Part shown: positions 23,021 to 60,430 of the stretch, piece by piece
Layout of the letters: every line of letters begins with the position of its first letter
Numbering within the stretch: position 1 is the stretch's first letter
NCBI GenBank assembly: GCA_964036045.1
Contig: OZ038382.1
Coordinates: 74,944,687 to 75,008,686 of the forward strand
Direction of reading: 5' to 3'
DNA from: Eutreptiella sp. 'Long Island Sound 2002'
Lineage: Eukaryota > Euglenozoa > Euglenophyceae > Eutreptiales > Eutreptiaceae
Length of the DNA: 64,000 bases
The notes under the pieces: generated by a model
What the model was told of the DNA's origin: nothing
Databases searched by the model: none
Seen by the model: only the letters and a program-made list of their open reading frames with translations
Position numbers and translations under genes: made by a program

Positions 23021-23069
23021 TTGTTGCAGCTTGAGGGTTCAGGAGGCCCGCTTACAACGTTGCTGTTTT

Positions 23070-23115
23070 CCCGCAATTTTCCGCAATTTTCCGCAATTTT
23101 CCCGCATTTTTTCCC
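23070..23115 (+). repeat. 10-bp minisatellite, copy 2
   Basis: Three to four tandem CCGCAATTTT units ending CCCGCATTTTTT, identical in structure to 22731-22785 and in the same orientation. The pair brackets the second SINE-like element as long direct flanks. Confidence 0.85.
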
Positions 23116-23169
23116 CAATTTTTTTTATTTGGATTCGACCCCTCCCCCCCACACCTTAATCCCCCCCCC

Positions 23170-39340: not shown

Positions 39341-39448
39341 CGGACCTAAAGGGTCGGACACCAATGTACGGGCATAGGTACATAACGCGTGCTGCCTGGG
39401 GGCCCCCAACACCTCGCACCGGGTGACAAAACCTGAGGTGGCCCACAA
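38440..39448 (-). pseudogene. possible decayed coding region, unknown family
   Basis: Three consecutive minus-strand frames give protein-like sequence: a basic then acidic segment (RKKALPKKRWAQKAK, then DDCSSDGSCDGEPISL) at about 39305-39160, a middle part near 38940-38700, and a third near 38660-38450. Stops separate them and I see no clear introns. It could be a relic of a transposase or host gene; I do not recognise it. Confidence 0.25.
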
Positions 39449-41109
39449 GTGGGCCGGGAGCTACATAACCCATGCTTGAGGGTCCCCAATGCTTCATATC
39501 GTGGGACCAAATCAGTAGTGGCCGATAAGTGGGCTAGGTGGCTACATAACCCCTGCCGCCTAGGGGGTCTTGATGCTTCAAAGAGGGGGGTCAAAATCCC
39601 ACATGGGCCACAAGAGGGCCGGGTGGCTACATACGTCCCAAAGCGTTGGGATCCCCCAAACAAGACGGGTGACATAGTCACCCGGCCCAATTGAGCGCCA
39701 CCTCTGACATTCTCCCCCGCTCACAGGCAATGTGGACCCCCCCGGTGGCATGCGTCATGTGGCCAATTACCCCACTTGTGGGCCACGTCTGAATTTGCCC
39801 CCGCTTGGAAGCGTTGGGGACTCCCGAGGCAGCAAGAGTTTTTGAGCAACCGAACAACTTCTGATTTTGTCCGCCGCGCTAAAGAATTTTCGACCCCCGG
39901 TCCGCAAGGGTTATGTAGCCACCCGCCCACTTGTGGGGCACCTCTACTTTTGCCCCCCAACCCTCGCCGCGTTGGGGATTCCCAATGCTTCAGGTCGGGG
40001 AACAAAATTAGAGGTGGCCCAAAAGTGGGCCGGCTGGCTACATAATCCCCAACGGCTAGCGGGGTCCCCATTGCTTCAGAGCGAGGGTCCAATTGACACG
40101 TGGCCCACAAGTGGGTCGGGTGGCTACATAACCCCTGCTGCGCGGGTGCTCCCCAACACTTCACGGCGAGTAACAAAATTGGAGGTGGCACACAAGTGGG
40201 CCGGGTGGCTACATAGTCCGTGCCGCCTAGGGGTTTCCGAACGCTTCCGTGCGGCTGACAAAATCAGAGGTGGCCCACAAATGGGACGTCCGGCAATATA
40301 ACGCCTGTCGCTAGGAGGAACCCAATGCTTTGGGGGGGGGGGGGGGCAAGTTCGGGAACGGCCCAAAAGTGGGCTGGGCGGCTGCATTATGCGAATGCTT
40401 GTTTCGGGGTCCCCAACCCTCCATAACGAGGGACAAAATGAGAAAGCGCCCACAAGTGGGTGGCGTGGCGAAATAACGCCTACCGCCTCGGGGGCTCCCA
40501 AGCGCTTAAGAGCAGGGGACAAATTCACAGGTGGCCCACAAGTGGGCCGGGTAGGTACACAAGCCCTGCCGCCCAGGAGGTCCCCAACGCTTCAAAGCGG
40601 GGTCAAGTTCAAAGGCGGCCCATAAGTGGGCCGGGTGGCTACATAATCCCTGCAAACTAGAGGGGTCCAACACGATTCAGAGCAGGGGGAAAAACCGGAG
40701 GTGGTTCACAAGTGAGCCGGGTTGTTGCAGAACCCCTGCCACCTGGGGGGCTCCCCAACGCTTAAGAGCGGGGGACAAACTCAGAGGTGGCCGACACAAG
40801 TGAGCCGGGTGGCTACATACCTCCTACCGCCTAGGAGGTCCCCAATTTTGGAGAGTGGGGGACCGAATCACAAGTGGCCCACAATTGGGGCGGTTCGGCT
40901 ACATAACCGCTACCACATGGTGGGGTCCCCAACGCTTTAGACTAGGGGACAATGTCAAAGGTAGCCCACAAGTCGGCCAGGTGGCAACATAAACCCTGTA
41001 TCATGGGGGATCCCCACCGCTTCAGAGCGGGGAACAAATTCTGAAGTGGCGCACACAATGGAGCCGGGTGGCTACATTACCCCTACTGCCTCGGGGGTCT
41101 TCAATGCTT
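39341..41109 (+). repeat. 86-bp tandem satellite, left part
   Basis: About 20 diverged units with period of roughly 82-93 bp, for example the GGGTGGCTACATA landmark at about 40118, 40200, 40630 and 40808. Each unit holds CCCCAACGCTTCAGAGCGGG, ACAAA and GTGGCCCACAAGTGGGCCGG-like sequence, the last being a short imperfect palindrome. A run of 17 G lies at about 40333. The array is split by the transposon at 41110 and resumes at 54133. Confidence 0.9.
41105..41109. other. target-site duplication of outer element (left)
   Basis: TGCTT immediately before the outer element's first base C; the same TGCTT follows its last base at 54133-54137. The pre-insertion site is the AATGCTTCAGAG part of an 86-bp satellite unit. 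Confidence 0.85.
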
Positions 41110-41315
41110 CTTAGGCGTCACAAGTTGCCCACCCTCTAGGATCCCGTATACGCGCGATGTGACAATATTCTACATTTCTACTTTGAGTATGCTATTTGAC
41201 ATATGTGACCAAAGTTCTTGGCAGAGCTGTGTGACACCCGTTGAAATACGTGTTGATGTGTTAGCCCTGTGTATCCCCATCTTCTAGTGTGTTGTATTTG
41301 ACGTTTTTCCAGAAG

Positions 41316-41616
41316 CTGGCCGAAAATGAGGCCAGCTTTTGGGTAACATTGCAAACAACTATGTGTATATGCAGTTTTCGACCCTTCTGGCCGAAATTTC
41401 GGCCAGCTTTTTGGTTTCCTAGTTAATAGGCATAGTTTTTTTCATTTTTCTTAGGTCTGGCCGAAATTTCGGCCAGCTTTTTGGTCTGTTCACTATTCAA
41501 GCACTTACATTCCGGTTCTCGGTACTTCTGCCCGAAATTTCGGCCAGCTTTTCCTATTTTTGAACATTTAAGCAATTATTTCCCCTTCGAACACACCTGG
41601 CCGAAATTATGGCCAG
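41316..41616 (+). promoter_or_regulatory. left subterminal palindrome cluster, outer copy (5 sites)
   Basis: Five copies of the 20-bp palindrome CTGGCCGAAATTTCGGCCAG start at 41316, 41387, 41457, 41528 and 41597: spacings 71, 70, 71 and 69. The second and third are perfect; the first (AAATGAG centre), fourth (CTGC start) and fifth (ATTAT centre) are mutated. Several are followed by CTTTTTGGT. They are probable binding sites for an element-encoded protein. Confidence 0.85.
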
Positions 41617-41944
41617 CTTGCAATTGTCGTTGTTCATGAGTATTACACCTTACACTCCTACATAACTGTTTTCTTGTCTTAGCATGAATGTCTTCTGCTA
41701 TTACTGTCAATGTTGTACATGCTGCAGTCACTGGTGCTTTTGCTACTACAGCTAAAGGGTTGTTGCGAAATGCATTACGTGGTGGGATTCTGCAAAAGCT
41801 TTTGCAAATCTGCCTCATGTTGCGGAAGAATCGCAGGAGCCGGCACTCCTTGACACAGTTGAAGGCTGCCGCCACTGAGAAGAAGCCCCCACGATGGTAC
41901 ATGACATTTTTGTCACAGTTCCATGCCCTATGCTGCCTGCTGCG

Positions 41945-41949
41945 TCGTA
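41945..41949. other. target-site duplication of inner element (left)
   Basis: TCGTA before the inner element's first base; repeated at 48476-48480. The matching uninterrupted site in the inner copy reads GCGCCGTATGGCC at 42777-42789, so the insertion landed within the first gene of the outer copy. Confidence 0.85.
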
Positions 41950-42154
41950 CTTAGGCGTCACAAGTTGCCCACCCTCTATGTCCCCGTATACGCGCGATTT
42001 GACAATATTCTACATTTCTACTTTGAGTATGTTATTTGACGTATGTGACCAAAGTTGTTGGCAGAGCTGTGTGACACCCGTTGAAATACGTGTTGATGTG
42101 TTAGCCTTGTGTATCCCCGTCTTCTAGTGTGTTGTATTTGACGTTTTTCTGAAG

Positions 42155-42454
42155 CTGGCCGAAATTTCGGCAGGTTTTGGGTAACATTGCAAACAACTAT
42201 GTGTATATGCAGTTTTTGACCCTTCTGGCCGAAATTTCGGCCAGCTTTTTGGTTTCTTGGTGAATAGGCATGATTATTTTCATTTTTCTTAGGGCTGGCC
42301 GAAATTTCGGCCAGCTTTTTGGTCTGTTCACTATTCAAGCACTTATATTCTGGTTTTTGGGTGGGCTTGCCGAAATTTCGGCCAGCTTTTCCTATTTTTG
42401 AACATGTAAGCAATTATTTCCCCTTTGAACACACCTGGCCGAAATTTCGGCCAG
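42155..42454 (+). promoter_or_regulatory. left subterminal palindrome cluster, inner copy (5 sites)
   Basis: Palindromes start at 42155 (one C missing), 42225 (perfect), 42295 (perfect), 42366 (one mismatch) and 42435 (perfect): spacings 70, 70, 71 and 69. The sequence between them differs from interval to interval, so only the palindrome and a short CTTTTTGG flank are conserved. The cluster lies between the TIR and the first gene, where a promoter or transposase-binding region would be. Confidence 0.9.
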
Positions 42455-42522
42455 CTTGCAATTGTCGTTGTTCATGAGTATTACACCATACACTACATAA
42501 CTGTTTTCTTGTCTCAGCATTA

Positions 42523-44685
42523 ATGTCTCTTGCTATTACTGTCAATGTTGTACATGCTGCAGTTACTGGTGCTTTTGCTACTACAGCCAAAGGGCTGTTG
42601 CGAAATGCATTACGTGGTGGGACTCTGCAAAAGCTTTTGCAATTCTGCCTCTTGTTGCGGAAGAATCGCAGGAGCCGGCACTCCCTGACACAGTTGAAGG
42701 CCGCCGCCACTGAGAAGAAGCCCCCACGATGGTACATGACATTTTTGTCACAGTTCCATGCCCTATACTGCCTGCTGCGCCGTATGGCCCTCCCATACTC
42801 TAACTGTGGGTCTGGTTACAACTGGGGTATTATGTCCTGCCGCCAACGCCGTAAGGTAGGAGTCCTTGGTCAGTGTAACACTAAGCAGGAGTCCATTCAC
42901 CATCGTGCTGGACTAGCAGCACACAACTTGTGGAACACCATGCACCGTAGGCAAGTTTGTATATGGTTTGATAACCTGAGGCGTTACAGGTCGGGAGCTG
43001 ATCCCCATTCACCCGACTTAACCCTAAACTGTACAGCTGTTGCTGTTTTGCACACTACTGCCCTACCTGCATACCGGGGTCTGCCGGAGCTGGCCGAAAT
43101 TGAGGCCAGGGTACCAAAGGTTGCTGATGACATCTTTCGCTCACATAGAGCATTGTTTGATCGTATTGATGTTGCCAACCAAGGTATTCAGAGAGTTTGG
43201 GTTCGTGCCCCTTTGGATATTGCCAGAAAAGATGTTCGTTCCCTCAACTGGAGACCCTTTTTCCTGTCTGAGCTCCGCTCCGGCACACACAAAGAGCTTT
43301 TGCAACTCGTGGTTGATTTGTCATGTGTGGAACACCGCACCAGACACTGTGTTCCGCTGCTTGTGGACATGAAAATACACTTTGCCCTACTTAAGCTGTG
43401 TTATGGTGCTGCTTATGTTCCCTGGAATGTACCACAATTACTGTTGGGTTTTCTGTTGGTGTACGGAGTATGGCATAGCTATAAGTATTGCGTTCAATTG
43501 ATCTACGGGGTGTTCCTGCCGTTCATTAAGTTTTTGGAGCAGGGGAACAGCCTTCAGGTTGGGTCTATCCTCCCTCGCAAGGTCAAGGTCATCCATATGG
43601 AGAAGACGTCGCTTGGACTCATGCTAGCCACATCGTCCAATAGAGGCAGACTAGATGAGCGCGTCACTTCCCTGCTCAATAGCCAGCGGAATTTGACACC
43701 CATTCAGCGCAAGGGTTTGCGTATGTTATTAGCCCTTAAGGCTTTGCTGTACACATACTGTCCAGCTGCTTTCAGCATTGGGACTTTGGTTCGTGAGTGC
43801 AACTGGCAGGGACGGGGGGCAGGTTCCGGTATTGTAGCTAAGCAGGCACTTGAGATGTCCCTACTGCTCATGCTGAACATCCTAAAGCCTGAGGAACAGT
43901 TAACCACGGCGTATGTGAAAACCACCGCTGTTGCTCTTTTGTTTTGGAGCCAGTGGCATTCCGCCTCCCTAGGGTGTATCCACTCTGAGGAGCTGGGTGA
44001 GGCACTTCTGAGTCGGTTCTCAGCCCACTGTCGCCGCAACACTGCCTGTACTAGTGTCCAACAGTCGTCTGATTTATTTCTGACACTTCCCCCTGTCCAA
44101 CCCGGAGAGAAAGTTTTGCGTGGTGTGCTGACAGAGAGATCCGTGGCAATGTTCTCTGCCAATCTTAAACAATTCATCTTGACAGCCCATACACAGAGCC
44201 TGCCCATTTGTGTTCCCGTTCCGGACTATAAAGTTGAGGTGAGAAGACTGGATGCAGTTGAGGATTTGACGTTCCCCGGTACCATGTCTAGGACACGAAT
44301 CACCACAGACCGTTTAAAAGTGGTTCTGTTGCATGCAATGCAAAATCTGGTTGCGCGTACCAGGGTTCCTGAGGGTGTTGAGGATTTTTTACAGACAAAT
44401 GCACCTGCCCGCACTGCTGCCGAGCAAGGGGTGTTGCGTACTGCACATGCTTCTATTCGCGCTGCCAACCGTGCACCGCCTGCTGCTCCTGCTGCTGCTC
44501 CTGGTGGAATTGCCTTGCCCCCAAAGCCACCCCCGAAGCCCCGAGCCAGAGGCCCCCCAGTACCCCCCCCGGACCCCCCCCGCCCAGTACCCCCCCCCGC
44601 CCTTGATTCCATTGCTGTCGACTCTTGTGATAGTGACCAGGATATTGATCGTGATCAGACAGCGTTGCCTCCTTTGAAGCCCTAG
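42523..44685 (+). CDS. 720-aa element protein, candidate transposase (unknown family)
   Basis: Single open frame from ATG 42523 to TAG 44685. I do not recognise a named family with certainty. Visible features: a basic N-terminal segment (LRKNRRSRHS); VCIWFDNLRRY with D150; a palindrome-derived LAEIEAR at 190-196; CVPLLVDMKIHFALLKLCYG with D282; then GVWHSYKYCV and an aromatic FLPFIKFL; and a proline-rich tail (from about 650) with an acidic end SDQDIDRD. Two aspartates in hydrophobic strands about 130 residues apart would suit an RNase H-like DDE transposase, but the third acidic residue is not identified. Just upstream is TTTTCTTGTCTCAG|CATT, a good splice acceptor, so a short 5-prime exon is possible. 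The homologue in the outer element is broken by three stops. Confidence 0.8.
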   Translation: MSLAITVNVVHAAVTGAFATTAKGLLRNALRGGTLQKLLQFCLLLRKNRRSRHSLTQLKAAATEKKPPRWYMTFLSQFHALYCLLRRMALPYSNCGSGYNWGIMSCRQRRKVGVLGQCNTKQESIHHRAGLAAHNLWNTMHRRQVCIWFDNLRRYRSGADPHSPDLTLNCTAVAVLHTTALPAYRGLPELAEIEARVPKVADDIFRSHRALFDRIDVANQGIQRVWVRAPLDIARKDVRSLNWRPFFLSELRSGTHKELLQLVVDLSCVEHRTRHCVPLLVDMKIHFALLKLCYGAAYVPWNVPQLLLGFLLVYGVWHSYKYCVQLIYGVFLPFIKFLEQGNSLQVGSILPRKVKVIHMEKTSLGLMLATSSNRGRLDERVTSLLNSQRNLTPIQRKGLRMLLALKALLYTYCPAAFSIGTLVRECNWQGRGAGSGIVAKQALEMSLLLMLNILKPEEQLTTAYVKTTAVALLFWSQWHSASLGCIHSEELGEALLSRFSAHCRRNTACTSVQQSSDLFLTLPPVQPGEKVLRGVLTERSVAMFSANLKQFILTAHTQSLPICVPVPDYKVEVRRLDAVEDLTFPGTMSRTRITTDRLKVVLLHAMQNLVARTRVPEGVEDFLQTNAPARTAAEQGVLRTAHASIRAANRAPPAAPAAAPGGIALPPKPPPKPRARGPPVPPPDPPRPVPPPALDSIAVDSCDSDQDIDRDQTALPPLKP
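43090..43109 (+). repeat. diverged exonic copy of the palindrome
   Basis: CTGGCCGAAATTGAGGCCAG, two bases off the consensus, read in frame as LAEIEA within the 720-aa protein. The same variant is in the outer copy at 48786-48805. It is the only copy found inside a coding exon. Confidence 0.8.
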
Positions 44686-44821
44686 ATGAGGCGGAACACA
44701 TCGGTGTGGATACTCAGGATTGGGACTGATTTCTGTTTGCAGCTGTGTTTGTCACTGTGGTATGGGTTCTGCCACGCATTGCCAGTGATTTTGGTGTGTC
44801 TTTTTGCTGTTTCATGTTTTT

Positions 44822-44980
44822 CTGGCCGAAATTTCGGCCAGACTTGTTGTTTTGTCATATGGCTACCCCCGGTACACAAATGACTTAAGGTTCTGGCCGA
44901 AATTTCGGCCAGCCTCTCAGAATGGTATTTGTACACAGTGGTTTGACATGCAGAGCAGTGCTGGCCGAAATTTCGGCCAG
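44822..44980 (+). promoter_or_regulatory. central palindrome cluster, inner copy (3 sites)
   Basis: Perfect palindromes at 44822, 44893 and 44961 (spacings 71 and 68), between the stop of the first gene and the start of the second. This is a likely promoter or control region of the second gene. Confidence 0.9.
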
Positions 44981-45099
44981 GTTATCCGAATTTCCTGTCA
45001 GGCAGTCCGTTTTGGTCCTTTTTTGGTTGATCTGTGCTTGTTATTTGCTATCTGGGAACTCTCCCCTTCATGAAATGTTGCCTTGTAGCCCTTTATTTT

Positions 45100-47687
45100 A
45101 TGACTGAGCCTGGAGGGGTATCGCAGGACATGGCTGTTTCGTCAGATGGTGAGCCTGCAGCAGACAATGGGCAATCTCAAGTGCAATCCCAGTCTCAAGA
45201 GGACCAGGCGAGCACAGAGGGACTTCAAAAGAAGCCTAAGACCGCACCAAAGAAAATTTCATCATCCTCCATCAAGTTATCGGACTGGGTTACGTCAACG
45301 ACGAAAATAAAGGTTCGGTGGGATCAGATTATTATCGACCACGACCGAAAATTTGGGCAGGTCCGTAGGATTTCGGATGATCGCGTGCAACGCCGCCACG
45401 ACGATCTGAAGGCAGCCCCGCCTGTGGATTACATCCAGGATCTTCTTTTTTATAAAGTCACTCGTATGTGTGTTGTGGTATTCTTCTCGATAGTACCGTT
45501 TTCGCGTCTGAATTTTTGACCCTGCTGTTACGAATATTCCTGTTGCACAGCCACTCGCTGGGTTCTGTTCGGGGGTCAGCATGTTTACACTGCTGCCCAA
45601 AAACACAAGACCGAATTTGAGATGAAAAATATGGAGACTCCGGATTGGACCCTGGTATTTGGTGGTTATGAAGTCAAACAGGACTGCCCCCTGCGGACTA
45701 GGCGCCGGCTTGCAGGCTTACATCAAATCCAGACCACTGCTGGCTCAGCATCCACCACATCGGAGCGAATGTCCCTACTCCTGGATAGGCTTGAGGATGA
45801 GGATGCCAATGAGTACACCCTGTACCATCACATTACTGTTATGCTTGAAGAGTGTGGTGTTACTGCCGAGGAAGGCACTGTGGTGTGTTTCATTTATTAA
45901 TTCGGTTTTGTCGATCGACCTGGCCGAAATTTCGGCCAGCTTCTGTGTTCCACATGTTCTCCTGTGCAGAGTGCTGTTGCCAAACGGTGGGGTGGCGTTG
46001 GGCGTTTGGTGAAATTTGTGGGTCTTCCTTCAGTAGACGCCATGGCAGCCATGGAAAAGCGTGGATTACATCCCGCACTGGGTACGTTCAAGGAAGTGGA
46101 AGGCATCACGCCTGACGGACTTCGCGAGATCGTAGGTTACATGGATGGGACAAAAAGTACTCTACCTGGTCTCAAAAAAATTGTAAAAGATGTTAAAAAG
46201 GCCCAGATGTGGTCCTGGCACATTCTTCATCCCGAGGCGGCTACCAATGGGCTTGTGAACAACACCAGAGGTATGTTTTGGTCAAACAGGGGTTTGTATT
46301 CGAATAAATCGACCGACCTGGCCGAAATTTCGGCCACCTTGTGTGTCGTTCAATTAATGCACAATAGGAGCCCACCCTGTGCTACCACCTGTCTGCAGCT
46401 ACACTTGGTACTATCGAGATGGCCAAAAGGCAGTGCGCTATTGCATCACACCTGAAGGTAGCCTATGGCAGCTGGACCTGGACTGAAGAAAACCCCTGGC
46501 CCCCGTGGTCAGCAGTAATTAAGGCCCCCCTTTGGAAGGAACCCAAATATGAGGGGTTGCGGGGATTGTTGCAGAAGCCTGTTGCTAAGCCTGTTTGTGA
46601 AAAATCTGATACTGGTCTGGTCAGTATCCAGTGTGCTAGGGAGTCCCTCGTTGAGTCAAGCACAGGCAAACTAATTGCAGAGTCAGGCCGTGTGGAACTG
46701 ATGGCAATGCGTTGTGGAGTCCCTGTTCCCAGTATCATTAGTTCACTGCCCTTTGCTGCTTGTGTCATTGAGGTGCCCCGCCTCTATACAGCTGGTTTGC
46801 ATAACCTGGTTGCGCAGTTGCTTTTGTCCGGTGTGCCTGTGTTCATTGCGGGTGAGTCTGCTGATGTGAAAGCCACTGTTGCTGCTTTGAAGGCCACTGT
46901 GGCTGAGGATATGTATCAGTGTGATGTTGCAATTTACAATTTGTCAAGCAAGACCCCGCTGTACACTTCCACTTCCCATCTGGTTTCCATTTGTTCTGCC
47001 ACTGCCTTTGATAACAGGCTTCCCCGTTACGTGGCTTTTACTGAAGGACCCATGTCGTCTGTGATGCCTGTTGAAATATTCTCATTTCTTTTGAGCCTGG
47101 TTCCGGTCCCAGAACGGGCAGGCAACTGGTTTTTGCTGGGGACTCTGTCTGTGTATTTTGCAAGCATGATGTCTACCAGGTTTTCCAAGGACTGTAATGT
47201 TGTGTGTGCCCTTTTGGGTGAGGAGACTGTTGTGCCCGATGACTTTGTTCAGCTCATCAGAGCAGGTATCACCAACGCCGACACGTGCCCCCCCAAGTCA
47301 TGGGAGGATGTGTACCACGACTTGGGGGCAGGTTTTCCTGTGGATTGTTCTGGGGTTAGGTATGTAGATGAGGATCCCGAGGAGCAAGATGGGGAGGCAG
47401 AGTCGCAACCAGAGACACAGACTCCAAAGAAGAAACCCAAAGCTGCCCCTGCCCCCTCACCCAGTGGCACGCAGTGCGCTCAGGCCACCCCAGCTTCCTC
47501 CTCAGGCACTGTTGCCCCTAATGGCAAAGGTACGAATACTTTTGTGAATCATTTTTCACCATCCCAGGGTGGAAACACACAGTCACAGAACTCTGCCACT
47601 GCCAAGTCTGGTGCTGCAGCCCCTGCCAAGCAGCCTGCTAACACACGTGCTAAGAAGCCCCGTGCATCTGGTCTGCGCAAGCGCTAA
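45100..47687 (+). CDS. 761-aa ParB/DGQHR-like and methyltransferase-like fusion, 4 exons
   Basis: Inferred exons are 45100-45463, 45551-45882, 45970-46270 and 46399-47687. Donors are GTATGT (exons 1 and 3) and GTGTGT; acceptors are CACAG, TGCAG and TGCAG. Phases join cleanly (2286 nt). N-terminus: Q/S-rich linker and basic patch, then KVRWDQIIID (from about 71) and WVLFGGQHVYTAAQ (125-138), a pattern like ParB or DGQHR domains (V/I-x-G-G-Q-H-x-x-x-A). Residues about 245-300 look helical and may be HTH-like. The C-terminal half has ACVIEVPRLY (about 453-462), where a DPPY-type motif would be, and NWFLLGTLSVYF (575-586), where a FxGxG motif would be. If so, it is a permuted methyltransferase fold lacking catalytic residues. 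A basic tail follows (KKPRASGLRKR), a likely nuclear signal. Introns 2 and 3 each carry one palindrome. The exon 2 end could be three bases earlier. Confidence 0.7.
45920..45939 (+). repeat. palindrome in intron 2
   Basis: Perfect CTGGCCGAAATTTCGGCCAG between the donor of exon 2 and its acceptor at 45969/45970. Conserved in the outer copy at 51614-51633. Confidence 0.9.
46318..46337 (+). repeat. palindrome in intron 3
   Basis: One mismatch (last base C). Conserved in the outer copy at 52012-52031, where it is perfect. Confidence 0.9.
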
Positions 47688-47726
47688 TGCCAGTCCTGCT
47701 GCTTATATTGCCTGTCAGCATGAATT

Positions 47727-48049
47727 CTGGCCGAAATTTCGGCCAGCATGCAGTCCTCAGCCTCTTCAGCCTCTTATTATTGTGTTTCCCCATAGGCACT
47801 GCAAACGTCTGCTTTGATTCGTCAGGTGGCAAGTATTTGCTTGTAATTGAGTATATTCTGTTGCACACCCTGTTCAAATCTCTCTGCTCCTGTGTTCCTT
47901 GCTCACGTCTACTGTCTTAGGTACCCATTTCAGTGATCACATTCGGAGTTTCGATGGACCTGGCCGAAATTTCGGCCAGCTTAGGCCTGTCTGTCAAATA
48001 GGACCATGTGTTTGGACTTTTTCGAAGAGCTGGCCGAAATTTCGGCCAG
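47727..48049 (+). promoter_or_regulatory. right subterminal palindromes, inner copy (3 sites)
   Basis: Perfect palindromes at 47727, 47960 and 48030, all downstream of the second gene. The last two are 70 bp apart, matching the left-end period. Confidence 0.9.
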
Positions 48050-48475
48050 GTTGGTTAAAATAGGAAATACAAGTACATGCTTTGGGATAGTTTTTTGTGT
48101 GCTTCAATGAAAGGTGTGTTTGGGGTTCCCTCATCTGTGGTGTATAGGGGGGTTCTGTGATCAACCTCGAACAAAGGGGAGAGAAAAATAGGCAGCCCCC
48201 CCCCCCCACACACACACTGGAATGCAGTGGTCTAAATGTAAAACAACACTATATTTTGGTGATTGAATGTCTTTATTTTGAAAATCTGTGTGTTTCCAGA
48301 AATGCAAATAATGGCATATATTTGAAATACACACCTTGTTTTTGCATGTTGCCACCAGGGGGGTTTGGGTACCCAAAAAATAACACCCCTTTTCACATAC
48401 TTTCCCCCTCATTACAACATGGACTTCCGTGGGCCATAGCGCCAGGTGGGGGGTGGGCAACTTGTGACGCCTAAG

Positions 48476-48480
48476 TCGTA
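48476..48480. other. target-site duplication of inner element (right)
   Basis: TCGTA, directly repeating 41945-41949; the outer element's first gene resumes here. Confidence 0.85.
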
Positions 48481-50526
48481 TGGCCCTCCCATACTCTAAC
48501 TGTGGGTCTGGTTACAACTGGGGTATTATGTCCTGCCGCCAACGCCGTAAGGTAGGAGTCCTTGGTCAGTGTAACACTAAGCAGGAGTCCATTCACCATC
48601 GTGCTGGACTAGCAGCACACAACTTGTGGAACACCATGCACCGTAGGCAAGTTTGTATATGGTTTGATAAACTGTGGCGTTACAGGTCGGGAGCTGATCC
48701 CCATTCACCCGACTGAACCCTAAACTGTACAGCTGTTGCTGTTTTGCACACTACTGCCCTACCTGCATACCGGGGTCTGCCGGAGCTGGCCGAAATTGAG
48801 GCCAGGGTACCAAAGGTTGCAGATGACATCTTTCGCTCACATAGAGCTTTGTTTGATCGTATTGATGTTGTCAACCAAGGTATTCAGAGAGTTTGGGTTC
48901 GTGCTCCTTTAGATATTGCCAGAAAAAATGTTTGTTCCCTCAATTGGAGACCCTTTTTGGTGTCTGAGCTCTGCTCCGGCACACACGAAGAGCTTTTGCA
49001 ACTCGTGGTTGATTTGTCATGTGTGGAACACCGCACCGGACACTGTGTTCCGCTGCTTGTGGACATGAAAATACACTTTGCCCTACTTAAGCTGTGTTAT
49101 GGTGCTGCTTATGTTGCGTGGAATGTACCACAATTACTGTTGGGTTTTCTGTTGGTGTACGGAGTATGGCATAGCTATAAGTAATGCGCTGAATTGATCT
49201 ACAGGGTGTTCCCGCCTTTCATTATGTTTTTGGAGCCGGGGAATAGCCTTCAGGTTGGGTCTAACCTCCCTCTCAAGGTCAAGGTCATCCATATGGAGAA
49301 GACGTTGCTTGGACTCATGCTAGCCACATCGTCCAATAGAGGCAGACTAGATGAGCGCGTCACTACCCTGCTCAATGGCCAGCGGAATTTGACACGCATT
49401 CAGCGCAAGGGTTTGCGTATGTTATTAGCCCTTAAGGCTTTGCTGTACACATACTATCCAGCTGCTTTGAGCAATGGGACTTTTGTTCGTGAGTGCAATT
49501 GGGAGGGCCGGGGGGCAGGTTCCGGTATTGTAGCTAAGCAGGCACTTGAGATGTCCCTACTGCTCATGCTGAACATCCTAAAGCCCGAGGAGTAGTTAGC
49601 CACGCAGTGTGTGAAAACCACCGCTGTTGCTCTTTTGTTTTGGAGTCAGTGGCATTCCGCCTCTCTAGGGTGTATCCACTGTGAGGAGCTGGGTGACGCA
49701 CTTCTGAGTCGGTTCTCAGCCCACTGTCGCCGCAACACTGCCTGTACCAGTGCCCAACAGCCGTTTGATTTATTTCTGACACTCCCCCCTGTCCAACCGG
49801 GAGAGAATGTTTCGCGTGGTGTGCTGGCTGAGAGATCCGTGGCAATGTTCTATGCCAATCTTCAAGAATTCATCTTGACAGCCCATACACAGAGCCTGCC
49901 CATATGTGTTTGCGTTCCGGACTATAAAGTTGAGGTGAGAAGACTGGATGCAGTTGAGGATTTGACGTTCCCCGGTACCATGTCTAGGACACGAATCACC
50001 ACAGACCGTTTAAAAGTGGTTCTGTTGCATGCAATGCAAAATCTGGTTGCGCGTACCAGTGTTCCTGAGGGTGTTGAGGATTTTTTACAGACAAATGCAC
50101 CCGCTCGCACTGCTGCCCAGCAAGGGGTGTTGCGTACTGCACATGCTTCTATCCGCGCTGCCAACCGTGCACCGCCTGCTGCTCCTGCTGCTGCTCCTGG
50201 TGGAATTGCCTTGCCCCCAAAGCCACCCCCAAAGCCCCGAGCCAGAGCCCCCCCAGTACCCCCCCCAGCCCCCCCCCCCCCCCCGCCCAGTGCCCCCCCC
50301 CCGCCCCTGATGATTCCATTGCCATCGACTCTTGTGATAGTGACCGGGATATTGCTTGTGATGCAGACACCGTTGCCTCCTTTGAAGCGCTAGTGTTCTG
50401 CCTCATCGGTGTGGATACCCAGGAGTGGGACTGATTTCTGTTTGCAGCTGTGTTTGTCACTGTGGTATGGGTTCTGCCACGCATTGCCAGTGATTTTGGT
50501 GTGTCTATTTGCTGTTTCATTTTTTT

Positions 50527-50676
50527 GTGGCCGAAATTGTTGTTGTTTGGTCATATGGCTACCCCCGGTACACAAATGACATAAGGTTATGGCCGAAATT
50601 TCGGCCAGCCTCTCAGAATAGTATTTCTACACAGTGGTTTGACATGCAGAGCAGTGCTGGCCGAAATTTCGGCCAG
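50527..50676 (+). promoter_or_regulatory. central palindrome cluster, outer copy
   Basis: Counterpart of 44822-44980. The first site is reduced to a half (GTGGCCGAAATTGTTG, about 50527), the second at 50589 has one mismatch, and the third at 50657 is perfect; the last two are 68 bp apart. Confidence 0.85.
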
Positions 50677-51613
50677 GTTATCCGATTTTCCTGTCAGGCA
50701 GTCCGTTTTGGTCCTTTTTTGGTTTATCTGTGCCTGCTATTTGCTATTTGGGAACTCTCCCCTTCATGAAATGTTGCCGTGTGGCATTTTATTTGATGCC
50801 TTAGCCTGGAGAGGTATCACAGGACGTGGCTATTTCGCCAGATGGTGACCCTGCAGCAGACAATGGGCAATCTCAAGTGCAATCCCAGTCTCAAGAGGAC
50901 CAGGCGAGCACCGAGGGTCTTCAAAAGAAGCCTAAAGCCGCACCAAAGAAAAAATCAACATCTTCCATCAAAACATTCGACTGGGTTACGTCAACGGCGA
51001 AAATAAAGGTTCGGTGGGATCAGATTATTATCGACCACGACCGAAAGTTTGGGCACGTCCGTAGGATATCCGATGATCGCGTGCAACGCCGCTACGACGA
51101 TCTGAAGGCAGCCCCGCCTGTGGATTACTTCCAGGATCTTCTTTTTTATAAAGTCACTCGTATGTGTTGTGGTATTCTTCTCGATAGTACCGTTTTCGTG
51201 TCTGACTTTTCGATCCTGCTGTTTCGAATATTGCTGTTGCACAGCCACTCGCTGGGTTCTGTTGGGGGGTCAGCATGTTTACACTGCTGCCCAAAAACAC
51301 AAGACCGAATTTGAGATGAAATATATGGAGACTCCGGATTGGACCCTGGTATTTGGTGGTTATGAAGTCAAACAGGACTGCCCCCTGCGGACTAGGCGCC
51401 GGCTTGCAGGCTTACATCAAATCCAGACCACTGCTGGCTCGGCATCCACCACATCGGAGCGAATGTCCCTACTCCTGGATAGACTTGAGGATGAGGATGC
51501 CAATGAGTACACCCTGTACCATCACATTACTGTTCTGCTTGAAGAGTGTGGTGTTACTGCCGAGGAAGGCACTGTGGTGTGTTTCGTTTATTAATTGGGT
51601 TTTGTCGATCAAC

Positions 51614-51633
51614 CTGGCCGAAATTTCGGCCAG
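51614..51633 (+). repeat. palindrome in former intron 2, outer copy
   Basis: Perfect 20-bp palindrome at the position homologous to 45920-45939. Confidence 0.9.
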
Positions 51634-52011
51634 CTTCTGTGTTCCACATGTTCTCATGTGCAGAGTGCTGTTGTCAAACGGTGGGGTGGCGTTGGGCGTT
51701 TGGTGAAATTTGTGGGTCTTGCTGTAGTAGACGCCATGGCAGCCATGGAGAAGCTTGGATTACATCCCGCACTGGGTACGTTCAAGGAAGTGGAAGGCAT
51801 CACGCCTGACCGACTTCGCGACATCGTAGGTTACATGGATGGGACAAAAAGTACTCTACCTGGTCTCAAAGAAATTATAAAAGATGTTAAAAAGGCCCAG
51901 ATGTGGGCCTGGCACATTCTTCATCCCGAGGCGGTTACCAATGGGCTTGTCAACAACACCAGAGGTATGTTTTGGTCAAACAGGGGCTTGTAGTCGAATA
52001 AATCGACCGAC

Positions 52012-52031
52012 CTGGCCGAAATTTCGGCCAG
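52012..52031 (+). repeat. palindrome in former intron 3, outer copy
   Basis: Perfect 20-bp palindrome at the position homologous to 46318-46337. Confidence 0.9.
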
Positions 52032-53382
52032 CTTGTGTGTCGTTCAATTAATGCACAATAGGAGCCCACCTCGTGACACCACCTGTCTGCAGCTACACTT
52101 GGTACTATCGAGATGGCCAAAAGGCAGTGCGCTATTGCATCACACCTGAAGGTAGCCTATGGCAGCTGGACCTTGACTGAAGAAAATTCCTGGCCACCGT
52201 GGTCAGCAGTAATTAAGGCCCCCCTTTGGAAGGAACCCAAATATGAGGGGTTGCGGGGATTGTTGCAGAAGCCTGTTGCTAAGCCTGTGTGCTAGGGACT
52301 CCCTCGTTGAGTCAAGCACAGGCAAACTCATTGCAGAGTCAGGCCGTGTGGAACTGATGGCAATGCGTTGTGGAGTCCCTGTTCCCAGTATCATTAGTTC
52401 ACTGCCCTTTGCTGCTTGTCTCATTGAGGTGCCCCGCCTCTATACAGCTGGTTTGCATAACCTGGTTGCGCAGTTGCTTTTGTCCGGTGTGCCTGTGTTC
52501 ATTGCGGGTGAGTCTGCTGATGTGAAAGCCACTGTTGCTGCTTTGAAGGCCACTGTGGCTGAGGATATGTATAAGTGTGATGTTGCAATTTACAATTTGT
52601 CAAGCAAGACCCCGCTGTACACTTCCACTTCCCATCTGGTTTCCATTTGTTGTGCCACCGCCTTTGATAACAGGCTGCCCCGTTACGTGGCTTTTACTGA
52701 AGGACCCATGTCGTCTGTGATGCCTGTTGCGATATTCTCATTTCTTTTGAGCCTGGTTCCGGTCCCAGAACGGGCAGGCAACTGGTTTTTGCTGGGGACT
52801 CTGTCTGTGTATTTTTCAAGCATGCTGTCTACCAGGTTTTCCAAGGACTGTAAAGTTGTGTGTGCCCTTTTGGGTGAAGAGACTGGTGTGCCTGATGAGT
52901 TTGTTCAGTCCATCAGAGCGGCTATCACCAACGCCGACGCGTGCCCCCCCAAGTCATGGGAGGATGTGTACCACGACTTGGGGGCAGGTTTTCCTGTGGA
53001 TTGTTCTGGGGTTAGGTATGTCGATGAGGATCCTGAGGAGCAAGATGGGGAGGCAGAGTCGCAACCAGAGACACACACTCCAAAGAAGAAACCCAAAGCT
53101 GCCCCTGCCCCCTCACCTAGTGGCACGCAGTGCGCTCAGGCCACCCCGGCTTCCTCCTCAGGCACTGTGGCCCCTACTGGCAGAGGTATGAATACTTTTG
53201 TGACTCATTTTTCACCATCCCAGGGTGGAGACACACAGTCACAGAACTCTGCCACTGCCAAGTCTGGTGCTGCAGCCCCTGCCAAGCCTCCTGCTAACAC
53301 AGGTGCTAAGAAGCCCCGTGCATCTGGTCTGCGGAAGCGCTAATGCCAGTCCTACTGCTTATATTTCGTATCAATATGAAGT

Positions 53383-53706
53383 CTGGCCGAAATTTCGGCC
53401 AGCATGCAGTCCTCAGCCTCTTCAGCCTCTTATTATTGTGTTTCCCCATAGGCACTGCAAAAGTATGGTTCGATTCGTCAGTTGGCACGTATTTGCTTTT
53501 AATTGAGTATATTATGTTGCACACCCTGTTCAAATGTCACTGCTCCTGTGTTCCTTGCTCATGTCTACTGTCATAGGTACCCATTTCAGTGATCATGTTC
53601 GGAGTTTCGATGGACCTGGCCGAAATTTCGGCCACCTTAGGCCTGTCTGCCAAATAGGACCATGTGTTTGGACATTTTTCGAAGAGCTGGCCGAAATTTC
53701 AGCCAG
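53383..53706 (+). promoter_or_regulatory. right subterminal palindromes, outer copy (3 sites)
   Basis: Sites at 53383 (perfect), 53616 (last base changed) and 53687 (one internal change); the last two are 71 bp apart, as in the inner copy. Confidence 0.88.
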
Positions 53707-54132
53707 GTTGGTTAAAATAGGAAATACAAGTAAGTACATGCTTTGGGATAGTTTTCTTTGTGCTTCAATGAAAGGTATGTTTGGGGTTCCCTCATCTGTG
53801 GTGTATAGGGCGGTTCTGTGATCAAGCTCGAACAAAGGGGAGAGAAAAATAGGCAGCCCCCCCCCCCCCCGCACTGGAATGCAGTGGTCTAAATGTAAAA
53901 CAACACTATATTTTGGTGATTGAATATCTTTATTTTGAAAATCTGTCTGTTTCCAGAAGTGCAAATAATGGCATATATTTGAAATACACACCTTGTTTTT
54001 GCATATTGCCACTAGGGGGGTTTGGATACCCAAAAAATAACACCCCTTTTCACATACTTTTCCCCTCACTACAACATGGACTTCCGTGGGCCATAGCGCC
54101 AGGTGGGGGGTGGGCAACTTGTGACGCCTAAG

Positions 54133-54265
54133 TGCTTCAGAGCCCACAAGTGGGCCGGGTAGCTACATCCCCCCCGCCGCCCGGGGGGTCCCCAATGCTT
54201 CAGAGCAAGGGACAAAATCAGAGGTGACCCATAAGTGGGCCGGGTAGCTACATCACCCCTTCCGC
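54133..54265 (+). repeat. 86-bp satellite, right remnant, with TSD
   Basis: Begins with the TSD TGCTT (54133-54137) and continues the satellite unit interrupted at 41109 (CAGAGCCCACAAGTGGGCCGG), giving one to two more units before satellite family B starts at GGGCACGCCAAATGG. Confidence 0.85.
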
Positions 54266-57200
54266 CTGGAGGGCACGCCAAATGGTGTGGATGATTTTTG
54301 GGAGAACACATTTTTGACCCATTTTTGTAATTTTTTTTTTGGTCCCAAAACAACTCATTTCCACGGCATTTTTCAGGAAGTTCCGACGGCGAGAATGGCC
54401 CATCACAGGCTCAAAACGTGCCAAAATTACTTGTTTTGGCATCCCACGTGGTCAAGGATCATTTTTAAACAAAGTCATTATGTTTTGGCACCTAGTCAAC
54501 CTTGTTGACCGCTTTTGGCATTCACCTCTTTGGGCTTTACCATGGAACTTGTTGTAGCTTGTTCGGCCCACGTGCGCTGTCTAGGCGTCCCAAGGCTTTG
54601 CCGTGCAGCTTATTGAGCCCTTTCGGCGCAAGTACGGGGTCTGGGCCATAGGGTGAGAAAATGCAAACTGCTTCCACCAGCTCGGTTACTCTAGCCATAG
54701 CCCTACGCAGGTGTAAACACTGTGACCGAGGTAGTGAGAAAAGGAACATCATCTATGCGTGTTCAAGGCCACGAAGAAAGATTCACTCCACTTCCGCCCT
54801 CCGAAACCGCCGGTGAAAGTGGATTTGAGCAGGTCAAAATAGACTCAAAATGAGCTCTATTCATCCGGCTGGACACGCCAAATGGAGTAGGATCGTTTTT
54901 CCAAAATAAGATTTTGACCCACTGTTGAGCCACTTGTGGTCCCAAAATGGTCCATTTTCAAGGCTCTTTAGGGCTTGAGACGGGCCAAAATCGCTCAAAA
55001 TGGGCTCCCATCTGGCTCATTTCACTTGTTTGTGCACCGGGTATGGTGCAAAATTAATTTTTCGGAAACACCCCTCACCCTCACAATCGTGTGTTGAGCC
55101 AGGTAGCCCACGATATGGCTTGGTCCTGGTTTAAAGCTGCCACCGGCCAATGCGCACAAAAATTTTCCGCGTGTAGGGGTTATTTGGGCGCGTTTCTCGG
55201 GCATCTCGTGGAGTTAGAGGGCTATGGAGGGCTCTTTGACCCAAGGAAGTCAAGCTACATGTGGAGTGTTGCCACCATTTGCCGTTGTCTGGCCGTTTTG
55301 AACAGGTTCTTGTGCGGTTTAAGGCCAAGTAGGCTCTTTTTTGGCCCCGCATTGCTGTTTTTCAAACAAACGTCCGCCAGCCACCATTGAGTTTGTGGCT
55401 CATATTTTGTGTTATTGTTCTTCACACCCATAGGTATCATCCACCAAAATTTTCGTCAAATCCGAAGCACCACGATAAAGTTGCAACTCTTGCCCATTGC
55501 GCGCGTGGTTTCTATTGCTTGCTTTGAGCTTTCTACGAAGTCTGAATGGTTCACGCTAGACACTCAATAGGGTTGTCAAATCACGACTGCTTCCACCAGC
55601 TTAGTTACTCCAGCCATAGCCCCGACCAAGTGTGCGTATTGCGACCGAGCTAGTGAGGATAGAAACATCACCTATGTGTGTTTATGGCCACAAAGAAAGA
55701 TTCACACCACTTCCCCCCTCCGAAACCGCCGTTGAAAGTGGATTTGAGCGGGTCAACAGAGGCTCAAAATGAGCTCTATTCATCTGGTTGGACACGCCAA
55801 ATGGACTAGGATCATTTTTCCAAAAGAAGTCTTTGACCCACTGTTCAGCCACTTGTGGTCCCCAATTGGCCCATTTTCAAGCGTCTTTAGGGCGTGAGAC
55901 GGGCCAAAATCGCTCAAAATGGGCTCCACTTGGGCTCCTTTCTCTTGTTTGTGCACCGGGTATGGTGCAAAATTAATTTTTGGGAAACACATTTTGTCTC
56001 AAAGCAGCCCATTGGCAACTCATTTTATGGTTATAGCGGGCCAAAATGGCTTACAATGGCCTCAAAATAGGCTTCTTTCACTTGTTTGGGCACTCCAAAT
56101 GGTGTGGGATCATATTGGGGAAAACACATTTTTGACTCATTGTTGGACATTTTTATTGGTCCAAAACAACTCATATCCACGGCATTTTTGAGGATTTGCT
56201 GAGGGCCAAGACGGCAAAACGTGCCAACATTACTTGTTTTGGCATCCCATGTGGTCTAGGATCATTTTTGACCGAAATCATTATGGTTTGGCACCCAATT
56301 GTCCTTGTTGACCGCTTTTGGCATTCCCGAAGAGGCTTTATCTTGCAGCTTATTGTACCCCGTTGGGCCCAAGTACGGGTTCTAGGTGTCTGTTTGGGCA
56401 ATTCTATAGGATGGAAACCACAAGAAATGTGTGGTTGCGGTGGACTAGGTACCCTCACAATCGTGTTTTGAGCCACGTAGCCCAAGATATGGCTTGTTCT
56501 TGGTTTAAAGCTATCAAGGGCCAATCTGCACAAAATTTTTTGCCCTCTCGGGGTCATTTGGGCGCATTTCTCGGGCAATCTCGTGGAGTTGGAGGGCTAT
56601 GGAGGGCTCTTTGACCCAAGAGAGTCAAGCTGCATGTGGAGTGTAGCCACCATTTGCCTTTGTTTGGCCGTTTTGTGCGCGCGGCATGTGTTGCTTCCTT
56701 GTTGCTTTCTGCCCAGTCAAGACTGCTTCCACCAGCTCCGTTACTCTAGCCATAGCCCTACGCAGGTGTGAGTATTGCAACCGAGCTAGCGGCAAAAGCA
56801 ACATCAGCTATTTGTGTTCAAGGCAATGAAGAAAGATTCACTCCACTTCCCCCCTTCCGAAACTGCCGTTGAAAGTGGATTTGAGCGGGTTAAAATAGGC
56901 TCAAAATGAGATGTATTCATCCGGTTGGACACGCCGAATGGACTAGGATCATTCTTGGAAAAAAGAACTTTTTGACCCACTGTTGAGCCACTTGTGGTCC
57001 CAAAATGGCCCCTTTTTAAGGCTCTTTAGCACTTGAGACGGGCCAAAATCGCTCAAGATGGGCTCCAATGGGGCTGATTTCACTTGTTTGTGCACCCCAT
57101 ATGGTGCAAAATTATTTTTGGTAAACACATTTTGTCCCAAAACTGCCCATTGGCAACTCATTTTATGGTTATGGCGGGCCAAATGGCTTACAATGGCCAC

Positions 57201-60200
57201 AAAATAGGCTAATTTCATTTTTCTGGGCACCCCAAATGGCGTGGGATCATATTGGGAAAACCCATTTTTAACCCAATTTTGACAATTTTTTTGTTCCAAA
57301 ACAACTCATTTCCACGGCATTTTTGAGGGTTTGCCGAGGGCCAAAACGGCCCTCAACATGCTCAAAAGCACGGCTCAAAACGTGCCAAAATTACTTGTTT
57401 TGGAATCCCACGTGGTCTAGGATCAATTTTGACCAAAGTCATTATTTTTTGGCAGCAAGTTGACCTTGTTGACCGCTTTTGGCATTCACCTCTTTGGGCT
57501 TTATCTTGCAACTTATTGTAGGCCGTTGGGCCCCAATAACGGGTCTAAGGGCCTATTTGGGCAATTATAGAGGACGGAAACCACAAGAAGTGGGTGGTTG
57601 CGGTGGATTAGGTACCCTCACAATCGTGTTTTGAGCCACGTAGCCCAAGATATGGCTTGTTCTCTCTTTGAAGCTGTCAACGGCCAATGTGCACAATTTT
57701 TTTGCCCTCTAGGGGTCATTTGGAGGTGTTTCTTGGGCATCTAGTGAAGGTACAGGGCCATGGAGGGCTCTTTGACCCAGGGAAGTCAAGCTGCATGTGG
57801 AGTATCGCCACCATTGGCCTTCGTTTGCCCGCATTGAACATGTTCTAGTGCGCTTTTGAGCCAAACAGGCTGTTTTTTGGCTCTGCATTGCAATTTTTGA
57901 AATGGAGGTCCGCCACTTGCGACCCCTGTTCCTGGCCGCCACCATTGAGTCTCTCGCTCATATGATGTGTAATTGTTCTTCGCACCCATAGGTATCATCC
58001 ACCTAAATTTCACTCAAATCTGAAGCACCAGGATGGAGTTGCAATTCTTGCCCATTGCGCGCGTGGCTTGTGTTGCTTGCTTGCCGTATTCTTCCCTTTC
58101 TGATAGGTCAACCCCACACACTCAATAGTGTTATAAAACGCAGACTGCTTCCAGCAGCTCCCACGTGGTCAAGGATCATTTTTGAACAAAGTCATAATGT
58201 TTTGGCACCAAGTTGACGTTGTTGACCGCGTTTGGCAATCACCTGTTTGGGCTTTATCTTGCAGCTTATTGTAGCCCGTTGGGCCCAAGTACGGGTTCTA
58301 GGTGTGGTCTAGGGTGGGTGGTTGCGGTGGACTAGGCACCTTCACAATCATGTTTTGAGCCACACAGCCCAAGATATCGCTTGTTCTTGGTTTAAAGCTG
58401 TCAACGGCCAATGTGCACAAATTTTTGGGCCGCTAGGGGTAATTTGGGCACGTTTCTTGGGCATCTCGTGGAGTTAGAAGGCCATGGAGGGCTCTTTGAC
58501 CCAGGGAATTCAGGCTACATGTGGATTGTACCCACCATTTGCCTTCATTTGACCGCATTGAACATGTTCTAGTGCCGTTTTGGGCCAAAGATGCTGTTTT
58601 CGGGCCTTGCATTGCAGCTTTTGAAACGAAGGTCCGCCACTTGCGACCCTCGTTCGTGGCCGCCACCATTGAGTCTCTTGCTCACATTTTGTGTTATTGT
58701 TCTTCACACCCATAGGTATTATCCACCAAAATTTCAGTCAAATCCAAAGCACCACGATGGAGTTGCAATTTTTGCCCATTGCGTGCGTGGCATGTGTTGC
58801 TTGCTCGCTGCTTTCTGCGCAGTCTGATAGGTTCATCCTAGACACTCAATAGGGTTCTCAAATCAAGACTGCTTCCACTAGCTTAGTTACTCTAGCCATA
58901 GCCCTAACCAGGTGTGAGTATTGCGACCGAGCTGGTGGGGGAAGGAACAATTAGCTATGTGTGTTCAAGGCCATGAAGAAAGATTCACCCCACTTCCCCC
59001 CTCCGAAACCGCCGTTGAAAGTGGATTTGAGCAGGTCAAAAGAGGCTCAAAATGAGCTCTATTCATCCGGTTGGGCGCCCCAAATTGACTAGGATCATTT
59101 TTGGCAAAAGAAGTCTTTGACCCACTGTTGACCCACTTGTGGTCCCAAAATGGCCCATTTTCCAGCCTTTTTAGGATCTCAGAGGGGCCAAAATCGCTCA
59201 AAATTGGCTCCAGTTGGGCTCATTTCACTTGTTTGTGCACCCCATATGGTCCAAAGTTATTTTTGGGAAACACATTTTGTCCCAAAAGAGCCCATTGGCA
59301 ACTCATTTTATGGTTATAGCGGGCCAAAATGGCTTACAATGGCCTCAAAATAGGCTTCTTTCACTTGTTTGGGCACCCCAAATGGTGTGGAGTGGATCAT
59401 TCTTGCGAAACCACATTTTGACTCATTTTTGACAATTTTTTTTGTTCCAAACCAACTCAATTCCATAGCATTTTCGAGGATTTGCCGAGGGCCAAAACGG
59501 CCCACCACATGCGCGAAACGTGCCAAAATTACTTGTTTTGGCATCCCACGTGGTCTAGAATCATTTTTGAACGAAATCATCTTTTTTTGGCACCCAGTCA
59601 TCCTTGTTGACCGCTTTTGGCATTCACCTCTTTGGGCTTTATCTTGCAGCTTATTGTACCCCGTTGGGCCCAAGTACGGGTTCTAGGTGTCTGTTTGGGC
59701 AATTCTATAGGATGGAAACCACAAGAAGTGTGTGGTTGTGGTGGACTAGGTACCCTCACAATCATGTTTTGAGCCACGTAGCCCAAAATATGGCTTGTTC
59801 TTGGTTTAAAGCTGTCAACAGCCAACGTGCACAAATTTTTTGGCCGCTAGGGGTTATATGGGCACGTTTCTTGGGCACCTCGTGGAGTTAGAGGGCTATG
59901 GAGGGCTCTTTGACCCAGGTAATTCAAGCTGCATGTGGAGTGTAGCCACCATTTGCCTTTGTTTGGCCGTTTTGAACAGGTTTTGGGCCAAATAGGTTGT
60001 TTTTTGGCCCAAGAAAAAGGGTGTTCTTTGGTTTTTTGGCATTGCAGTTTTTGAAACGGAGGTCTGCCACTTGCGACCCCCGTTCCTAGCCGCCACCATT
60101 GAGTCTCTTGCTCATATTTGTGTTATTGTTCTTCACACCCATAGGTATCATCCACCAAACTTTCAGTCAAATCCAAAGCACCATGATGGAGTTGCACTTT

Positions 60201-60430
60201 TTGCCCATTGCGCACCTAGCTTGTCTTGCTTGCTTGCTGTTTTCTGCCCAGTCTAATAGGTTCAGCCTAGACACTCAATAGTGTTAGACAATCAAGACTG
60301 CTTCCACCAGCTTGCTTACTTGAGCCATAGCCCTAACCAGGTGTGAGTATTGCGACCGAGCTAGTGAGGATAGGAACATCAGCTTTGTGTGTTGAAGGCC
60401 ATGAAGAAAGATTCACTCCACTTTCCCCCT
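54266..60430 (+). repeat. satellite family B, last block
   Basis: Plus-oriented units. The anchor GAGGG(C/T)(C/T)ATGGAGGGCTCTT lies at about 55216, 56595, 57749, 58480 and 59887; spacings of 1379 and 1407 bp are full units, while 1154 and 731 bp are shortened units. The internal block is in the ordinary orientation here. It ends abruptly at about 60430 inside a minus-strand exon-like frame. Confidence 0.88.

Follow-up and report, generated by a model that had tools for sequence, protein, structure and literature searches.

Phased arrays of a 20-bp palindrome in a DNA transposon of Eutreptiella, candidate operators of an element-encoded DNA-binding protein

Background

To our knowledge, sequence-specific factors with which transposons escape host silencing are described in few cases, VANC and TnpA. 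Here, a stretch of 64,000 nt from the euglenophyte Eutreptiella sp. 'Long Island Sound 2002' (assembly GCA_964036045.1, contig OZ038382.1, positions 74,944,687 to 75,008,686 of the forward strand; hereafter the window) is analysed, in which a 6.5-kb DNA transposon with two genes, ORF1 and ORF2, carries arrays of a 20-bp palindromic site, CTGGCCGAAATTTCGGCCAG. Arrays of short sites are known from several systems. TnpA binds a repeated 12-bp motif that lies near the ends only of En/Spm (CACTA) elements, and it affects their methylation. ParB-parS and other partition-site arrays consist of clustered perfect dyads read by a spreading dimeric protein. Transib elements make a 5-bp target duplication and have CACWATG ends and a RAG1-like transposase, and the Mutator-like VANDAL elements duplicate about 9 bp of their target. 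The VANC anti-silencing proteins belong to the VANDAL transposons of Arabidopsis; VANC21 sits in introns, intergenic regions and terminal non-coding regions of VANDAL21, and the VANC motifs are described as non-palindromic words of 8-9 bp in a single orientation, present at high density and often in tandem repeats (PMC5735166).

The present locus resembles the VANC/VANDAL system in that a short element-specific motif has accumulated in non-coding parts (here 13 of the 14 sites of a full copy, two of them in ORF2 introns) and in that related families have different motifs. VANC is an element-encoded, non-transposase protein that acts in trans, and a counterpart is presumed here. The locus differs from the VANC motifs in that its site is a 20-bp dyad at fixed phase, and from VANDAL in its 5-bp target duplication and in an ORF1 without a Pfam transposase match. 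As in En/Spm, a short motif is repeated close to the element ends, but CACTA ends and a 3-bp duplication are absent, the ends here being CTTAGGC and the duplication 5 bp. The clustered dyad sites are like parS in form only; in contrast to ParB-parS, no ParB domain is detected, and the sites lie in an integrated eukaryotic transposon rather than a replicon. The 5-bp duplication is shared with Transib, but the terminal inverted repeat (TIR) does not start with CACWATG and ORF1 has no sequence match in Pfam or PDB. By analogy, the element may work like the VANC or TnpA systems; its 5-bp duplication, CTTAGGC ends and lack of a known transposase profile do not mark it as a member of either.

The cis-code described here is a long dyad at fixed phase that is present in thousands of genomic copies, multiplied in mobile derivatives without intact genes and altered in a sister family of the same genome; with such a code, the co-evolution of protein and site and the role of the phasing become directly testable. 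As ORF1 has no match in Pfam or PDB and ORF2 none above the cut-off in Pfam, NCBIfam, PHROGs or PDB, the element may also represent a group of DNA transposons not yet described. A literature search on this kind of element or array turned up the VANC papers but, going by the listings, no account of arrays like these, which does not imply that they are absent from print.

Results and Discussion

Distribution and phasing of the sites

Allowing up to three mismatches, CTGGCCGAAATTTCGGCCAG is matched 27 times in the window, every time between positions 41316 and 53706, and not at all in shuffled sequence. Self-comparison and the end sequences identify this region as two nested copies of the transposon, an inner copy inserted into an outer one. 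A sequence-only reading of the window, made without database searches, had claimed that the motif is confined there to the transposon, and this holds. The spacings it gave are also reproduced (70, 70, 71 and 69 bp in the inner left array; 71, 70, 71 and 69 bp in the outer left array; 71 and 68 bp in the central array; 70 and 71 bp in the right pair of the inner and outer copy, respectively). Across the genome, which comprises 2,280,300,865 bases, CTGGCCGAAATTTCGGCCAG is present in 6168 exact copies, as against none for a reversed control pattern. Fifty listed places among the 6168 fall into six elements, each bounded by TIRs; one of the six is represented by its two outer parts, L037 and L038. 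The motif is found in 11 stretches of a 257-Gb prokaryotic collection, with one copy apiece, and is not found in viral contigs. No RNA families were found in a search of the window.

A full copy of the element, L043, has 14 sites (at 206, 277, 347, 418, 487, 1145, 2883, 2954, 3022, 3981, 4379, 5788, 6021 and 6091). Seven of its 13 neighbour distances are 68-71 bp, and 200,000 random placements in non-coding sequence reached four at most. The other distances (233, 398, 658, 959, 1409 and 1738 bp) are not all multiples of 70. Thus, the earlier count of about 14 sites per element is correct, and the 70-bp phase that was ascribed to them applies to 7 of the 13 distances. The five left sites stop about 68 bp short of the ORF1 start, and the three central sites about 120 bp short of the ORF2 start. 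The site within ORF1 is imperfect in its 3' half, so the palindrome is not perfect in every case as had been supposed; in the outer copy, only a half-site remnant is left at 50528.

The spacers had been read as unrelated to one another. This is nearly so, the exceptions being 7 of 182 spacer pairs with residual similarity (z>3). Some sites have short flanks in common, and such sites may have spread by duplication. In the inner copy, the sites at 45920, 46318 and 47960 share an extended left flank, in which approximately TCGATCGAC precedes the palindrome. Many sites also have CTT directly after them. The common left flank and trailing CTT hint either at spread of the site by duplication or at a longer recognition sequence.

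Ends, target duplications and copies of the transposon

The TIR CTTAGGCGTCACAAGTTGCCCACC, with ends CTTAGGC, is common to the inner and outer copies, and its exact sequence occurs genome-wide 452 times on one strand and 451 times on the other. Comparisons were made on a sample of 20 genome stretches (L035-L054), two of which are halves of one element. Both ends are present in 18 elements of this sample; the 5-bp duplications are identical in 16 of them and differ at one of the five bases in the other two. Sixteen stretches can be aligned to the inner copy over 4 kb or more; 13 of these are 1-2% different from it and three 2.2-2.4%, in a sample that is biased towards young copies because 13 of the 20 stretches were taken from the best matches. 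The outer copy differs from the inner copy by 4-6%. Judged by its ends, duplications and derivatives, the element is a DNA transposon of the cut-and-paste type, with the general features of such elements: TIRs, a target duplication of fixed length and mobile derivatives without intact genes. The sequence-only reading had named two findings that would speak against its view of the sites, a motif equally frequent outside the element and random spacing or number in other copies; neither is seen, in the 50 listed sites or the 20 stretches, respectively.

Some stretches of the sample hold further insertions. In L042 (1470-1490), a copy has apparently integrated right at the tip of the end of another element; its left flank, CCGCCTAAGT, resembles a TIR end. 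L038 has an insertion of 0.55 kb at the left array (2307-2857) with repeated ATCCGCGTT and GCTTCTGG words. In L037 (2784-6264), a copy of the element is interrupted by an insertion of 3.5 kb that has inverted ends of its own (GGATG.AGCG.TCTAGGGCGTGG). Its arrays are GC-rich and made up of GCGATAAC words, among them a perfect palindrome, TATCGCGCGATA (four exact copies inside and one in the flank); the insertion may represent another type of element that bears palindrome arrays.

Retention and multiplication of sites in derivatives without intact genes

The derivative L036 (3923 bp) has a TIR with one mismatch and a target duplication of its own, TACTA. It has no intact genes, its longest listed stop-to-stop frame being 188 codons. 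It carries 31 sites (up to four mismatches), many of them in duplicated or inverted blocks and including sites of the central type, with 23 of 30 neighbour distances at 62-78 bp. Compared with the autonomous copy L043, the sites of L036 differ at 36 of 579 positions (6%) and the spacers at 715 of 2994 (24%), and indels affect one column in sites versus 78 in spacers. As L036 contains several stretches that duplicate one another, which makes the p-value of this comparison too small, the comparison was also restricted to its non-repeating positions (1-487, 1525-2233 and 3364-3923), where 11 of 180 site positions differ versus 348 of 1558 spacer positions. The expectation that the spacing is kept while the spacers diverge is borne out here, and also by the phase of 69 bp in the second family described below. 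Where sites vary, the common forms have GAGG or TCTCCC in only one half of the dyad (inverted in L036), with no compensating change in the other.

A 501-bp piece of L036 has at least 40 genomic copies at 98-100% identity (40 of 668 candidates scored), and another copy of the L036 type, on C4, is 3927 bp long by its ends and is flanked on either side by a duplication of its own, TGTGG. Recent movement of an element that lacks intact genes and has multiplied sites indicates that the sites act in cis and the proteins in trans. The small derivatives L066-L068 likewise have identical 5-bp duplications, with 3, 6 and 8 sites (up to five mismatches).

A second family with an altered site

A second family, with an ORF1 that is 46% identical and of the P0016 type, has an array at the same place, upstream of ORF1. 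P0016-type ORF1 has 77 listed genomic matches (73 of 7859 candidates scored), 68 of which contain stop codons, so this family is older. It was sampled through two longer stretches (L069 and L070) and six short ones (L071-L076) upstream of ORF1. These eight stretches have 25 sites (up to five mismatches to CTGGGCGAAATTTCGCCCAG, the symmetric form deduced for this family), with a left half that is mostly CTGGGCGAAA. Ten distances are below 100 bp, all of them exactly 69 bp and distributed over six of the eight stretches; the others are 111-153 bp. Position 5 has G in place of C in 22 of the 25 sites, and A in the remaining three. In its deduced form, the site thus differs between the families by one base per half-site.

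CTGGGCGAAATTTCGCCCAG has 127 exact genomic copies, and a control symmetric variant that is likewise one step away, CTGGTCGAAATTTCGACCAG, has none. For 23 of 50 listed places of CTGGGCGAAATTTCGCCCAG, one of the 39 P0016-type ORF1 matches that are listed for C1-C4 is found no more than 6 kb away, compared with a random expectation of 0.03 on average and 1 at most (2000 trials), and three listed pairs are 70 bp apart. The ends of the second family seem to be CTTAGGC too, exact in one of two stretches. When three of the eight stretches are aligned with the first family, little is matched beyond the sites, some neighbouring bases and C-runs; the exceptions are a 45-bp piece around one site and a weak stretch of 91 bp that runs from site to site. 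An altered site at nearly the same spacing suggests a separate DNA-marking protein for every family of the element.

ORF1 and ORF2

ORF1, the candidate transposase, has 25 relatives in the protein collection, including a close cluster, a second group (P0016-P0023) that is 41-49% identical and the remote P0024 and P0025 (28-30%). Most of them retain the acidic residues at D282 and, by eye, those within the motifs WFDN and RECNW. ORF1 has no family match in Pfam (P0024 alone has one match, below the cut-off), no sequence match in PDB and no match in viral contigs. Its AlphaFold model, with a predicted local distance difference test score (pLDDT) of 43, is too poor to use, and no profile match to a DDE/RNase H fold was obtained; the conserved acids are the observation that bears on such a fold.

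The gene model of ORF2 has three GT-AG introns (87, 87 and 128 nt) and a frame that is open throughout. Spliced or in parts, ORF2 has nothing above the cut-off in Pfam, NCBIfam, PHROGs or PDB; its last exon has no match in phages and gives an unusable AlphaFold model (pLDDT 39). One segment, RWVLFGGQHVYTAAQKHK, looks ParB-like by eye, but every profile search was unsupportive and the claim of a ParB domain was dropped. Searches of Pfam, NCBIfam and PHROGs with ORF2, spliced and in parts but without a deep ORF2 profile, gave no ParB match, and the best PDB match (E 0.61) is not ParB. The comparison with parS made in the sequence-only reading is therefore apt for the form of the arrays and does not extend to the proteins, as a ParB domain is undetected in either one.

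Possible function of the arrays

The explanation that we favour is that the 20-mers act as operators: a dimeric DNA-binding protein encoded by the element, most likely by ORF2, would bind them and coat or license the element. We put the chance of this at about even. Terminal arrays, intergenic sites and intronic sites would allow a dimeric ORF2 product to load along the whole element, in trans also on copies without intact genes. The nucleoprotein coat would keep the DNA of the element accessible to transcription and transposition (anti-silencing or licensing), and the phase of about 70 bp would hold neighbouring dimers at a fixed distance, allowing cooperative contacts. The sites, their phasing, their retention in a mobile derivative without intact genes and the altered site of the second family are observed, and we infer from them the binding of a dimer, its encoding by ORF2 and licensing as the outcome. 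An element-encoded dimeric protein that binds the arrays would best account for the dyad form, for the phasing that is kept while spacers are replaced, for the change of the site in the sister family and for the occurrence of sites in mobile derivatives that lack intact genes. ORF2 is the favoured binder because it is the second, non-transposase-like gene and has a basic tail. Licensing is favoured over pure end recognition because 6 of the 14 sites are internal, two of them intronic, as with VANC21 in VANDAL21.

The arrays might also form a centromere-like 'address' system, in which a family-private 20-bp dyad at a phase of 69-71 bp and a matching, spreading dimeric protein would mark the element as active, families and gene-poor derivatives being licensed separately in what would be an undescribed transposon group. 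This extension is put forward tentatively, and we would sooner expect it to be wrong than right.

A number of results weigh against operators of an ORF2 dimer. In the second family, position 16, the partner of position 5, is C in 12 sites, T in 12 and G in one, so that both half-site positions are altered in 10 of 25 sites only. CTGGGCGAAATTTCGCCCAG is exact in none of these 25, and the sole perfect palindrome among them (in L072) is a third form, CTGGGGGAAATTTCCCCCAG. The first-family control for nearness to second-family ORF1 (0 of 12) says little because all 12 places lie where no second-family ORF1 is listed. Sites and spacers of the decayed second-family copies are nearly alike in divergence (22% vs 25%), and this family was read through ORF1 and the upstream stretches. 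In young copies of the first family, site changes are not significantly fewer than in other non-coding DNA (45 vs 61 expected, p 0.15); this is expected of decay after insertion, yet no support is gained from it. L048 and L066 are without the left array, and L039 is without the three 3' sites, despite normal target duplications. Finally, with no domain detected in ORF2 and an unusable model of its last exon, ORF1 could equally be the binder. The idea of a dyad array read by a dimeric protein, which goes back to the sequence-only reading, is well supported by the comparison as regards the kept sites, the kept phasing and the change in the second family, and is limited by the few sites changed in both halves and by a binder that is presumed.

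A strong rival is that the sites serve transposase binding only, with ORF1, alone or together with ORF2, pairing the ends and building the transposition complex in the manner of TnpA on the subterminal repeats of En/Spm. Five sites lie close to the left end and three close to the right, and a mobile derivative that has no intact genes retains and multiplies the sites, as would be expected of end recognition. The junction of L048, which lacks the left array, has a single genomic occurrence, which fits deletion after insertion and gives no sign of movement in that form. Internal sites up to about 3 kb from an end, the intronic ones among them, are however unneeded for end recognition, and L036 retains central-type sites as well. 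We consider this explanation on its own possible rather than probable; end recognition and licensing may both be true together. If the sites were instead promoter operators through which a factor of the element or of the host acts on ORF1 and ORF2 transcription, their positions shortly before the starts of both genes would be accounted for, but the intron and 3' sites and the multiplication in a mobile element that lacks intact genes would not, and a purely host factor would not lead one to predict that another family in this genome has a different site. This makes a promoter role improbable. Least of all do we expect the sites to be RNA hairpins or what passively remains of an ancient tandem repeat whose units measured about 70 bp. 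The residual similarity in a few spacer pairs is what such a repeat might leave behind, but between L036 and L043 the sites are nearly fourfold less diverged than the spacers, and the one-sided, uncompensated variants are not those of a hairpin; this explanation is already disfavoured.

Feature coordinates and other repeats in the window

Table 1. Features of the nested transposon copies (positions in the window).
Feature	Positions	Strand	Remarks
Outer transposon copy	41110..54132	+	TIR at both ends; interrupted after 41949 by the inner copy
Target duplication, outer copy	41105-41109 and 54133-54137		TGCTT
Inner transposon copy	41950..48475	+	6526 bp; TIR at both ends
Target duplication, inner copy	41945-41949 and 48476-48480		TCGTA
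Outer left array	41316..41616		Five sites: 41316, 41387, 41457, 41528, 41597
Inner left array	42155..42454		Five sites, upstream of ORF1: 42155, 42225, 42295, 42366, 42435
ORF1	42523..44685	+	720 aa; candidate transposase (putative role)
Site in ORF1	43090..43109		Imperfect; encodes LAEIEA; outer-copy counterpart at 48786
Central array	44822..44980		Between ORF1 and ORF2: 44822, 44893, 44961
ORF2	45100..47687	+	About 761 aa; candidate DNA-binding protein with basic tail (putative role)
ORF2 exons (gene model)	45100-45463, 45551-45882, 45970-46270, 46399-47687
Site in ORF2 intron 2	45920..45939
Site in ORF2 intron 3	46318..46337
3' sites	47727..48049		47727 (about 40 bp past the ORF2 stop), 47960, 48030
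Remaining outer-copy sites	48786..53706		48786, 50589, 50657, 51614, 52012, 53383, 53616, 53687

The outer element is inserted into degenerate repeats of about 200-300 bp (39380-41110 and 54133-54300). A large dispersed repeat family, with units of about 1 kb and more that are approximately 80-95% identical and partly in tandem, occupies 19000-34700 and 54270-60430 (for example, 24787-27737 vs 29555-32539, 93.6%). Another dispersed family is found at 5900-15800, in direct and inverted copies that are about 75-92% identical.

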